From positions 1 to 32,643 of the forward strand of contig JAAYKE010000089.1 in the NCBI GenBank assembly GCA_012522575.1: 32,643 bases of DNA, given 5' to 3'. The notes under the pieces are model-generated. The model ran no database searches, was not told where the DNA came from, and was given only the letters and a program-made list of their open reading frames with translations. The translations under genes and the position numbers were made by a program. Shown one piece after another: positions 26,029 to 30,115 of the stretch; within the stretch, counting starts at the first letter, position 1, and every line of letters begins with the position of its first letter. Source of the DNA: Armatimonadota bacterium (GTDB taxonomy: Bacteria; Armatimonadota; UBA5829).

Positions 26029-28758
26029 ATGCGCACCGTTTCTTTTGGCGTTCTTTTCACTTTTTTATTAGCGACGGTGATCTTCGGAGCCGCGCCAGTC
26101 AGTGATAATCTAATGGGGACGACCCTGGATTCGGCCTGGCAGATACATCGCGCCGATAGCTCCCGTGTTGTTGCGACAGGCGGCGGGGTCGTCTTTCGCT
26201 GCCGTCTGCACGAATACTGCTATATAAGCCGCCCCCTGGACGATGACCTGATAACGGTGAGCGCCCGCATCACCCCTTCCGTGCCTGCAGGGGCAACCTG
26301 GGGCACATCCCTTTTTATTATTTGGAACGACGGCAACCGATGCCAGGCAGGTTTGGCGGACTCACACGGAACATTTGGCCGATTTTTCACCTCCCTGACA
26401 ACGGATGGAGCGTCTGACACGAGCAATATCGCCAGATGCGACCTGACTCGGCCATATTATATGCGCATTCAGATCGGCAAAGACTGCATTCGTTTCTTTT
26501 GCAGTGAAAGCGGAGTGCGATGGACTCTGATTAAGACCGCCGAGCGTCCGCGGCAGTTTGCAGGCGCTCCGGTCAGCCTTGCGATCGGCAGAGGGCACGG
26601 GACCGGGACGGCTCCATACGCCAATCCCGGTCTGGATAACAGCTATTTAACTCCCGGGGAGATGGTTACATCCACAGTATCACATCTTCGCGTAGAAAAG
26701 ACCGATTCGGCAAGCCTGAAGATGAGCAAGTCCGAACGAATGGCCCTGGTTGAGCACGGCCCGGATCCGATCGCTCGCATAGTTTTGGAGGGCAAATCGG
26801 ACCCGACTTATGAGCAGGTGTCGAAGTTCTATCCTGCAATGCGGTTTCCAAGAGAGTCCGTAGGAGTGCCGGAACTGCCTGTGGAGATTTCGATCGATCA
26901 CCTTGGCAGGCTCGAACGCAATTTTGACGAGCCTCCGATAGCGTGGCTGGAAGCCGGCAAAGACAGGCCGCCATTTGGTGATGATATTGCGATTCAGCGG
27001 CGTCTGCTGGACGGCTGGCTGCCCGTCGTCGTGCTCACGACGAATCGCAATAATATAAATTATGAGCAGACCGTCTTTGGGTGGTCGGAGGGATTCAGCC
27101 CGGATCAGCCTCTTTATGCCTATGTGCGGCTGCGGATTCGGCCACAAACCGGCCACGCATCTGAGTTGCCGTCAACGGTATCCCTTATGACTCCCGATTC
27201 GAATTTGCGGATGGATTTTCAGGCTGCGCAGGATAGATATGGCTCTCAGGTTTGCCTGCGTATGCCATGGCCTGACGCAGCTAAGGCTCACTCGATAAGC
27301 CCAAAGGAGTTCGATGCAAAACTGAGGGAGTCCGCGGATTTATGGCGCGCTGAGATCGGCAAAGCTGCCCGGTTCGATATTCCCGAAAAGCGCGTTAACG
27401 AGGCGTATCGTGCGTGGATTGGCTACAGCCGGCTGTTAGTCGATAAATTGAACGGAATCTATGAGCCGCACGACGGCGCAGGGTTCTATGAGCTGAACTA
27501 CGGATACAGCGTGCTTTTACATTGCATCGCTCTGGATCAGTATGGCCTGCACGATGCGGCTGAACGCTATCTCGATTCTACGCTGCATTATCAACAGCCA
27601 AACGGGCTTTACACGCAAAACTACGGACTCTCCGATCAGGGCATGCTCCTCATCGCGATTGCCGAGCATTATAACCTTACCGGGGATAAAGACTGGCTGA
27701 AGCGGGTTTCAAACAAACTGACGCTGGCCGGGGACTGGCTTATCGAGCAGCGGAAACTCGCGCCGAAATCCGGGGTGACAAAAGGGCTTATCCTGTTCCA
27801 GCCATACTGCGATTATACGGCGGAGGAATATAACTATACCGGCGACGCGACCTGCTGCGTTGGGTTAGAAAAGGCTGCCGCGGCTCTCAAATCAATTGGC
27901 ATGGATGCGGAAGCGGATCGAATGGCGACCGAGGCCGGGCTGTACCGGGGGGATATCATCGCTTCGATGAATGCCGCAGCCATTCGCAAAGATGGCCGAA
28001 CGATGCTGCCGATTGTTCCTGATACGCAAAGGATGCTCAAAGCGGTCAACTACACGGCGAGGGACTACTACAGCCTGATAGGAGGCTGCCTGTTGGACAG
28101 CGGCTTTCTGGATGCGTTCGACAGGAGAGCGTACTGGATCACGGATTTGCTGGAAAACAGCGATGGATTGCTGGCAGGGCTGTGCAGATGGGAGACCGAT
28201 GGCGTCGACCATGCATACGCGCTGGGATATCTGTTGACCGAACTGCAACGGGGAAATCCGAGGAAAACGCTGCTTGGGTTCTATTCATTCCTCGCCTATG
28301 GGATGACACGAGACACCTACTCCGGCGTGGAATGCACATCAATCGTTACCGGCTCCAACTATTGGACCCTGCCCCATTTGTATTCCTGCACGCAGCAGTT
28401 GAGGTTGCTCAGGAATATGATCTTGCGAGAAGACAACGGCTCGTTGCTTATAGGGGATGCCATCCCGCGAAGCTGGCTGGAGGACGGAAAGAAGCTGGCG
28501 GTCAGGGATGCTCCGACGGAGTTCGGCGACGTTTCCATGAGCATCTTATCGGCGGTAAAATCCGAGTCGATTCTGGTGAAGTTCTCCCCTCCTGCCCGAT
28601 ACGCTCCAAAGTCCGTAAAAATCAGGCTGCGCCACCCTTCTGATAAGGCCATCAGGTCTGTGAGAATCGATGGACGCGCGTGGGATAAATTCGATAGAGA
28701 TAGTATCGATGTCAGCGGAGTCGGCAAGTCGGTTGCTATTTATGTAAATTATCGCTGA
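26029..28758 (+). CDS. exported multidomain protein with six-hairpin (alpha/alpha) glycosidase-like domain
   Basis: 909 residues, ATG 26029 with GGGAGG upstream. Residues 1-22 are a signal peptide. Residues about 25-225 form a concanavalin/laminin-G-like beta domain (LITVSARITPS..., YYMRIQIGKDCIRFF...), similar to DUF1349-type modules. A linking beta region follows, and residues about 440-760 look like an (alpha/alpha)6 toroid: YRAWIGYSRLL, GAGFYELNYGYSVLLH, GLSDQGMLLIAIAEHY, YCDYTAEEYNYTGDA, VDHAYALGYLLTEL. This layout is seen in glycosidases of the GH63/GH78/GH95-like fold. A C-terminal beta domain closes the protein. I cannot fix the GH family, the catalytic acids or the substrate. Only 19 bp after the methyltransferase gene, so possibly cotranscribed, without an evident functional link. 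Confidence 0.83.
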   Translation: MRTVSFGVLFTFLLATVIFGAAPVSDNLMGTTLDSAWQIHRADSSRVVATGGGVVFRCRLHEYCYISRPLDDDLITVSARITPSVPAGATWGTSLFIIWNDGNRCQAGLADSHGTFGRFFTSLTTDGASDTSNIARCDLTRPYYMRIQIGKDCIRFFCSESGVRWTLIKTAERPRQFAGAPVSLAIGRGHGTGTAPYANPGLDNSYLTPGEMVTSTVSHLRVEKTDSASLKMSKSERMALVEHGPDPIARIVLEGKSDPTYEQVSKFYPAMRFPRESVGVPELPVEISIDHLGRLERNFDEPPIAWLEAGKDRPPFGDDIAIQRRLLDGWLPVVVLTTNRNNINYEQTVFGWSEGFSPDQPLYAYVRLRIRPQTGHASELPSTVSLMTPDSNLRMDFQAAQDRYGSQVCLRMPWPDAAKAHSISPKEFDAKLRESADLWRAEIGKAARFDIPEKRVNEAYRAWIGYSRLLVDKLNGIYEPHDGAGFYELNYGYSVLLHCIALDQYGLHDAAERYLDSTLHYQQPNGLYTQNYGLSDQGMLLIAIAEHYNLTGDKDWLKRVSNKLTLAGDWLIEQRKLAPKSGVTKGLILFQPYCDYTAEEYNYTGDATCCVGLEKAAAALKSIGMDAEADRMATEAGLYRGDIIASMNAAAIRKDGRTMLPIVPDTQRMLKAVNYTARDYYSLIGGCLLDSGFLDAFDRRAYWITDLLENSDGLLAGLCRWETDGVDHAYALGYLLTELQRGNPRKTLLGFYSFLAYGMTRDTYSGVECTSIVTGSNYWTLPHLYSCTQQLRLLRNMILREDNGSLLIGDAIPRSWLEDGKKLAVRDAPTEFGDVSMSILSAVKSESILVKFSPPARYAPKSVKIRLRHPSDKAIRSVRIDGRAWDKFDRDSIDVSGVGKSVAIYVNYR

Positions 28759-28779: not shown

Positions 28780-29568
28780 TCAGGGTTGGATTCCTTTGCC
28801 GGCTATAATTGCCGCTCCAAGCGCGCCCGCTATCTGAGGTTCATCGGGCAGCAGCAGGCTTGATTTGACCCGTTCTTCTATGGCCGCGACCACTCCTGAG
28901 TTTTTCGCCACGCCTCCCGTCATCACAAACGGCTCCTGAGCGCGCAGGCGGGCGACCATAGCATAGATTCTTTCCGCTACCGATCTGTGCAATGCGCGGA
29001 TGATATCCTCTTTCGGTATTCCACGGGCTACCAGGGCTACGACTTCGGACTCAGCGAAAACGGTGCAGGCGCTTGAGATACGCACATCCGCACTCGATAG
29101 AGCCGATAGCCGACCCATCGACTCAAGATCGGTGTCCAATGATCGCGCCATGACTTCCAGAAATCTGCCAGTGCCGGCGGCGCATTTGTCGTTCATCGCA
29201 AAATCGTCCACGCGACCATCTTCGGCAAGACGAATTACCTTGCTGTCCTGGCCTCCGATGTCGATAACTGTGCGCGCCTGCCCAAAGAGTCGACGTGCGC
29301 CTGTGGCGTGACAGGTGATCTCGGTGACGGTTTTGTGGGCAAAGTCGATGCTTCCCCGTCCATATCCCGTGGCGACTATCGCGGTGACATCGTCCTGACT
29401 AAGACCTGCCAACGCAATCGCCTGATCGAACGCCAATCGAGCGGCAGTCTGCGAACTGGACAGGGTCGGCACGATGGCCGCAGATAAGATGCGCTGCCCC
29501 TGAAGGATAACGACATCGGTAGAAAGCGAGCCAATATCAATGCCTGCGGATATTATCTGGTGGTTCAC
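28780..29568 (-). CDS. activator ATPase of the 2-hydroxyacyl-CoA dehydratase (BadF/BadG/HgdC) family
   Basis: In known systems this homodimeric [4Fe-4S] ATPase injects one electron into a 2-hydroxyacyl-CoA dehydratase or benzoyl-CoA reductase. 262 residues with the ASKHA fold: GIDIGSLSTDVVI (phosphate 1), ATGYGRG, VIDIGGQDSKVI, AMNDKCAAGTGRFLEVMA (Cys129), SSACTVFAESEV (Cys168) and FVMTGGVAKNSGVV. Cys129 and Cys168 are the cluster ligands at the dimer interface. No dehydratase or reductase subunit is in the window, so the partner is unknown. Start is GTG 29568, only eight bases after a TATAAT and without Shine-Dalgarno. A candidate c-di-GMP-I riboswitch lies 200-330 bp upstream on the same strand. 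Convergent with the glycosidase-like gene, 21 bp apart. Confidence 0.93.
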   Translation of the reverse strand: MNHQIISAGIDIGSLSTDVVILQGQRILSAAIVPTLSSSQTAARLAFDQAIALAGLSQDDVTAIVATGYGRGSIDFAHKTVTEITCHATGARRLFGQARTVIDIGGQDSKVIRLAEDGRVDDFAMNDKCAAGTGRFLEVMARSLDTDLESMGRLSALSSADVRISSACTVFAESEVVALVARGIPKEDIIRALHRSVAERIYAMVARLRAQEPFVMTGGVAKNSGVVAAIEERVKSSLLLPDEPQIAGALGAAIIAGKGIQP

Positions 29569-29576
29569 AGGAAAGT

Positions 29577-29582
29577 ATTATA
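29577..29582 (-). promoter_or_regulatory. -10 box immediately before the activator gene
   Basis: Perfect TATAAT on the minus strand, eight bases before GTG 29568; no convincing -35 lies 16-18 bp upstream. If used, transcripts would begin 0-2 nt before the start codon and would bypass the upstream riboswitch. Confidence 0.45.
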
Positions 29583-29640
29583 CAACGAAGTGTTTACATC
29601 CTGCTCAATCGAATAAGGGTGAAAATCGGAGGCTGTGATA

Positions 29641-29696
29641 CGCCGGGCGGACTTATGAAATACGCGCCGGGCGGCCCCATTGTGCGGAACCGCCCG
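29641..29696 (-). promoter_or_regulatory. possible expression platform: one CGGGCGG arm and two CCGCCCG partners
   Basis: On the minus strand CGGGCGGTTCC (29686-29696) pairs over 11 positions, two of them G-U, with GGGGCCGCCCG (29668-29678) around a 7-nt loop. A second CCGCCCGGCG copy (29641-29650) could compete for the same arm. No U-tract follows. Position between the aptamer and the activator gene suggests alternative folding, which is inference. Confidence 0.45.
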
Positions 29697-29762
29697 ACAT
29701 AATATCATCCCTGCCAAGTACCTCCCTTCCAGACACCGGCAGGCGGACATTTCTTGCCAATA

Positions 29763-29903
29763 GACCTTCGGCAGCCCGGCCGGCTCACATCGTCAGACCT
29801 CAAAGACCCTGATATAATGGATCATGAGTTGCTATCCCCGACATTCTGAGCCCCGTGGGCTTTGCGTCTCCCGGTCGCCCGGGATTTGCCCTTATCGGTG
29901 TCT
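29763..29903 (-). ncRNA. candidate cyclic di-GMP-I (GEMM) riboswitch aptamer
   Basis: Minus-strand reading shows the class signatures in order: GGGCAAA (29885-29891); a TCCCGG/CCGGGA helix capped by the GNRA tetraloop GCGA; GACGCAAAGCC (29858-29868); GGGGCTCA; a peripheral stem (CTCATGATCC with GGGTCTTTGAG); and GCCGGGCTGCCGAAGG (29765-29780) at the 3' end. GGGCAAA, the GNRA helix and GACGCAAAGCC match the Vibrio cholerae Vc2 aptamer closely. The peripheral stem is longer than usual. The gene downstream on this strand is the activator ATPase. Confidence 0.75.
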
Positions 29904-30115
29904 TTCATATTGCTTGCGATTCGGCTCGACTAACCAATGTTCAGGATTCAATTCTCCTGCATCGAAGAACTCAATACTGCACGCTACCTAGCCAGAAGGC
30001 TTCCTCGCTGCTAATCAGAAAAAAGAATATTCACTTGTTCGCTATGTATTTTGTCTTTCCAATGGGATTATGCCGCTACTGCGGGCAAGAGTTTGCTGAG
30101 TTTATTACCGGTATT

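Follow-up and report, generated by a model that had tools for sequence, protein, structure and literature searches.

A c-di-GMP-I aptamer beside a 2-hydroxyacyl-CoA dehydratase activator gene in Armatimonadota may belong to a stand-alone non-coding RNA of tandem origin

In the 32,643-nucleotide stretch of Armatimonadota DNA analyzed here (the window), an RNA element stands ahead of the gene for an HgdC/BadF-type activator of 2-hydroxyacyl-CoA dehydratases, which raises the question of whether this RNA controls that gene. A preliminary description of the locus had taken the element for a c-di-GMP-I aptamer and proposed that c-di-GMP governs the activator through it. The identity of the aptamer was borne out. 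A cmscan search of the whole window gave two matches, one tRNA and one c-di-GMP-I RNA (RF01051), the latter spanning the full model (positions 1–87) with 57.1 bits against the curated cut-off of 35 bits. The signatures named in the description (GGGCAAA, the GNRA loop GCGA, GACGCAAAGCC, and GCCGGGCTGCCGA) were all found on the minus strand, and the P3 loop is enlarged by 59 nt. With the model of the c-di-GMP-I-GGC variant (RF03167), the window scored 53.1 bits, under the cut-off of 59. No other known RNA family, such as group I introns, matched the element at the cut-off, and none was found in five loci at permissive thresholds. At G20 (Vc2 numbering) of these RNAs, G versus another base separates c-di-GMP binders from cGAMP binders. 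The window aptamer reads AAGGGCAAA, with G at the putative discriminating position, which we take to correspond to G20. The genome encodes four GGDEF domains, and c-di-GMP signaling is therefore plausible in this organism.

The identity of the neighboring gene was likewise confirmed. Its open reading frame (GTG start, 262 aa) scored 272.6 bits with TIGR00241 (acyl-CoA dehydratase activase; cut-off 125.4) and also matched PF01869, and the closest solved structure is that of the 2-hydroxyisocaproyl-CoA dehydratase activator (4eht, approximately 225 bits). It is also an orphan, as described, since the flanking genes are convergent (26029–28758, plus strand) and divergent (30265, plus strand). The genome holds one HGD-D protein, on another contig, and also encodes a 1465-aa fusion with two activase-like domains. 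The HGD-D gene (G000:C66:46461-47480, L063) follows queD and queE, and its product weakly resembles the double-cubane reductase family NF040772 (52.9 bits, cut-off 350). HGD-D is absent from the activator-bearing genome G015 and present in G016 and G017, both without a close activator orthologue; this imperfect match led us to reject the two as a co-inherited pair.

Near relatives, which were found via the activator, carry the label Armatimonadota. Alignment of the orthologous loci of one family showed the aptamer to be embedded in a larger conserved RNA, in which five parts can be distinguished (Table 1): a promoter motif, an upstream hairpin (element A), the aptamer with a structured insertion (insert B), the helix P0 of 8 bp, and, ahead of the activator, a terminator-like hairpin. 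The orthologous RNA was present in ten genomes from three genera of the family: g1, which is the window's genus (window genome G000 and also G004), g2, and g6.

Table 1. Positions of the RNA parts and of the neighboring activator gene in the window
Feature	Position	Strand	Basis
Promoter-like motif GTAATNNNNYCAG-N21-GGCAYAA	30068-30108	(-)	aligned upstream regions of riboswitch loci
Element A, hairpin with conserved internal loop (CARTATTGAG / YTGAATCYTG)	29933-29987	(-)	covariation
5' strand AGACACCG, pairing in P0 or (AGAC) in aptamer P1	29896-29903	(-)	sequence comparison, folding
c-di-GMP-I aptamer	29767-29900	(-)	RF01051, 57.1 bits, E 8e-9
Insert B, structured domain inside the P3 loop (CCGGRGATAGNAAC..GGTCCGG type)	29792-29842	(-)	conserved, covariation
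3' strand of aptamer P1 (GTCT)	29762-29765	(-)	sequence
Predicted hairpin alternative to P0 (CCTGCC..GGCAGG)	29710-29743	(-)	predicted fold
3' strand of P0 (CGGTGTCT)	29731-29738	(-)	7-8 nt complement of the 5' strand, conserved
Terminator-like hairpin, weak T tail (CGTATTTCAT)	29655-29699 (hairpin proper 29699-29665)	(-)	sequence and folding
TATAAT box, leaderless-type promoter	29577-29582	(-)	sequence; 8 nt before the activator start codon
HgdC/BadF-type 2-hydroxyacyl-CoA dehydratase activator gene (neighbor)	28780-29568	(-)	TIGR00241, PF01869

Most of the family's non-flagellar c-di-GMP-I RNAs are preceded by the promoter-like motif at a near-fixed spacing. The whole genome contains three matches to it, two of which are upstream of c-di-GMP-I aptamers, and none to the reversed control pattern. 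The RNA would start near 30055–30065. In the phylum, the motif CSGGTAATNNNNYCAG-N21-GGCAYAA precedes many c-di-GMP-I RNAs, again at a near-fixed spacing (for example at L002, L003, L036-L040, L051, L054-L062, L228-L231, and L253), and the same motif was seen ahead of a secreted-protein-like gene without an aptamer (G000:C96, L104). The common motif suggests a shared activator or sigma factor. FliA-type promoters (CTAAAG..CCGATAAT) were observed at other c-di-GMP-I riboswitches (L035, L043, L044, L047-L050, L052, and L235), several of which stand before a small FlgM-like gene.

Element A was seen in 11 genomes of two families. In its alignment, 96.4% of the cells are paired and seven of the 15 pairs show changes on both sides; these pairing values were reached by 0 to 1 of 500 shuffles and exceeded those of all slid registers. 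Insert B is kept in the ten genomes of g1, g2, and g6, with compensatory changes present. A scan of 291 genomes of the phylum for the unit with insert B gave strong scores only in these three genera. Among the weak matches, G016 and G017 keep a tandem plan and P0, and G016 also keeps element A; the remaining weak matches inspected resemble ordinary aptamers and were rejected as homologs of the unit.

The relatives also provided insight into the origin of the RNA. In genus g6 (G010-G014), RF01051 finds two aptamers approximately 15–20 nt apart. The second is the orthologue of the window aptamer, and element A sits within P3 of the first. The tandem plan recurs with element A and P0 in another family (G016), and with P0 and without element A in a third (G017). 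No residual first aptamer was detected in g1 and g2, permissive thresholds included, and element A and the second aptamer remain there. The window RNA accordingly has one recognizable aptamer, against the two of a tandem c-di-GMP-I RNA that are found in G010-G014, G016, and G017. In G012, the first aptamer (L071, just upstream of 4902; G012:C45:95738-95883) reads AATAGCAAA, with A in place of the G of the others. In GEMM-I RNAs, replacement of G by A at this position is associated with cGAMP, and the G012 tandem could respond to mixed ligands. In a distant family of the phylum, tandem c-di-GMP-I aptamers lie immediately before a secreted subtilase-like gene (L253, G236:C116). Tandem c-di-GMP-I arrangements are common, with 347 doublets and 12 triplets (PMC9481103); a triple tandem of Bacillus thuringiensis is also cited in that paper. 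The arrangement is also enriched among c-di-GMP riboswitches (PMC12452182).

The genes that follow the RNA differ among the relatives. In g1, the RNA is followed by the activator, with 154–199 nt between the aptamer and the start codon (G000 and G004). In g6, the activator lies approximately 470–680 nt from the RNA, past a second strong hairpin. In g2 (G002 and G003), a hairpin and a hydrolase gene in convergent orientation come after the RNA, and the activator is approximately 1.4 kb away; the same RNA and hydrolase gene were found on a short contig of G001. In the sister families (G016 and G017), the RNA stands beside unrelated genes, which include an outer-membrane-protein-like and a 1-phosphofructokinase-like gene. 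Conservation of a same-strand downstream gene, as is expected of a cis-regulatory riboswitch, was thus not found across g1, g2, g6, G016, and G017. Orthologues of the activator with 59–67% identity occur without such an RNA (G006, G015, G018, and L108).

The activator also has a putative promoter of its own, the TATAAT box, and its GTG shows no evident ribosome-binding site in the window. Leaderless mRNAs typically show a TATAAT box close before a start codon that lacks a ribosome-binding site. TATAAA stands at the equivalent position in G004, and the other orthologues are less clear. In the window, TATAAT lies 5–8 nt before the start, with no evident ribosome-binding site, at panD (23748), metY (13852), and the activator (29568), and the genome may have many leaderless mRNAs.

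The folding analysis bears on whether the ligand could act on termination. The first four bases of AGACACCG double as the P1 strand that pairs with GTCT, so that P0 competes with P1. The complementarity of AGACACCG and CGGTGTCT is kept in all 12 genomes examined, from three families; because its pairs hardly vary, P0 rests on this conserved complementarity and not on covariation. The free minimum-energy fold is predicted to contain P0 in ten of the 12 genomes, and the aptamer-like fold is predicted to be approximately 1–16 kcal/mol weaker than the free fold before ligand is considered. In the window sequence itself, P0 is not preferred in free folding. The hairpin alternative to P0 is conserved in the sequences of g1 and g6 and absent in g2. 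Between the aptamer and the activator lies the terminator-like hairpin (12 bp, G+C-rich, −21.7 kcal/mol), and the relatives have one too; its T tail is poor in the window and reads TTTTT in the corresponding hairpin of G004. When P0 or P1 was forced in five genomes, the probability of the terminator stem was 0.84–1.00 either way, as calculated with a thermodynamic model and not a transcription assay. Folding thus predicts no ligand-dependent change of the terminator.

Because the neighbors differ, activators occur without the RNA, the activator has its own TATAAT box, and the terminator is predicted to be unchanged, the results do not support the proposal that the aptamer controls the activator. 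What stands of the proposal is the two identities and the neighborhood, which is kept in three genera, but not the control by c-di-GMP; the activator is probably not the target of the RNA. The RNA does stay near the activator in g1, g2, and g6 although the upstream neighbors change, which hints at a functional link. This lasting neighborhood and the weak T tail make read-through possible in the window's genus.

Sequence comparison shows the parts of the RNA (aptamer, element A, insert B, P0 complementarity, and terminator-like hairpin) and the variability of the downstream genes, from which we infer where the transcript starts and stops, that it binds the ligand and switches, and that it acts in trans. 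The reading that we favor, with moderate confidence, places the aptamer in a stand-alone non-coding RNA of approximately 400 nt that responds to c-di-GMP, derives from a tandem ancestor, has its own promoter and terminator, and probably acts in trans. The RNA would start at the promoter common to the c-di-GMP-I RNAs of the family and would end at its own terminator ahead of the activator gene. Binding of c-di-GMP would allow the aptamer P1 (AGAC/GTCT) to form at the expense of P0, the longer of the two helices (AGACACCG/CGGTGTCT, with GGC/GCC as an extension). The loss of P0 would release the 3' segment into its local hairpin (Table 1) and leave termination unchanged. Since no effect on the terminator is predicted, the most likely output would be the altered shape of the RNA itself, which would change how it binds a protein or a second RNA in trans. 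The combination of termination, a ligand response, and two additional conserved domains in one RNA suggests that it acts on such a partner. More tentatively, an order-level class may exist in Armatimonadota, in which stand-alone trans-acting non-coding RNAs sense c-di-GMP through one or two c-di-GMP-I aptamers and rearrange two new accessory domains, element A and insert B, without control of a downstream gene.

In six genomes of the family, a second c-di-GMP-I RNA (G000:C168:4271-4356, L089, in the window's genome; orthologues L091, L095, L099, L100, and L037) follows a PHP-like gene, with approximately 160 nt from that gene to the 3' end of the aptamer. This RNA, too, has a closing helix that resembles P0 (GAGGAG/CTCCTC) and a strong terminator-like hairpin, and the genes downstream vary. 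The stand-alone plan is therefore not unique to the window locus.

It is also conceivable, though we consider it unlikely, that the RNA is, in the window's genus if not more widely, an ordinary cis riboswitch through which c-di-GMP governs termination ahead of the activator. The order of aptamer, hairpin, and gene in G000 and G004, with the short distance to the start codon, would suit such a switch, as would the synteny with the activator kept in g1, g2, and g6 and the resemblance of other c-di-GMP-I RNAs of the class to terminator-controlled switches. Under this unlikely scheme, the 5' arm of the terminator (CGGGCGG) can base-pair with CCGCCTG, which in the window adjoins the P0 strand on the 5' side, and the ligand could free CCGCCTG as an antiterminator, giving an ON switch. 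However, conservation of this match is lacking, with 5 bp in G004 and none in g2, and the equal terminator probability in both states, the TATAAT box of the activator, and the convergent gene that intervenes in g2 all argue against such control.

It is still less probable that the RNA is a decaying relic, which once controlled a gene since lost or moved, with a window copy that has lost the first aptamer. In g1 and g2, the first aptamer indeed goes unrecognized even when the thresholds are permissive, and the downstream genes vary; but conservation extends over the core of the aptamer, element A, insert B, and P0 and includes some compensatory changes, a pattern indicative of ongoing selection. 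A small protein encoded by the RNA (TTG..TGA, approximately 29723-29566, running into the activator start), with its translation coupled to that of the activator, is very improbable. A GGGAGG precedes the TTG, and the end of the frame overlaps GTGA in the window, but the frame stops within 3–6 codons in G004, G012, G013, and G014. This frame is not kept in the relatives, and we rejected it.

c-di-GMP-I RNAs are usually regarded as leaders of the next gene, and lists of their targets have been drawn from the neighbors for this reason. If the RNA acts alone, c-di-GMP could steer distant targets through it, and in this phylum predictions restricted to the next gene would be mistaken. The present results also remove the support for a link between c-di-GMP and a radical-enzyme activator. 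Our literature search found no paper joining Armatimonadetes with a riboswitch, none joining a c-di-GMP riboswitch with a hydroxyacyl-CoA dehydratase, and no report of the window RNA, each an absence that is weak evidence.

Among known systems, the neighboring gene belongs by sequence to the family of HgdC-type activators (4eht and 1hux) and the activase of 7yyl, but no dehydratase partner gene is nearby here. The RNA shares the core, the GNRA-capped P2, P3, and the conserved joining segments with the c-di-GMP-I (GEMM-I) riboswitches and exceeds the cut-off of that family (RF01051). It differs from them in the 59-nt structured P3 insert, the enclosing P0 helix, the upstream accessory hairpin, and the lack of a conserved downstream gene. 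The two aptamers approximately 15–20 nt apart in g6, G016, and G017 resemble the tandem c-di-GMP-I riboswitches (PMC9481103), of which the window retains a single recognizable aptamer. Those tandems are described as gene-control systems, whereas here the downstream genes vary and a terminator follows. Riboswitch-containing trans-acting RNAs are represented by Rli55 (B12) and SreA (SAM) of Listeria (PMC8079631). As in these, the aptamer in the window lies in a putatively terminated RNA that may act away from the adjacent gene, with a different ligand and aptamer and with a trans action that we propose from the sequence. In Rli55, the ligand sets the length of the RNA via termination, whereas the terminator of the window RNA is predicted to be unaffected.
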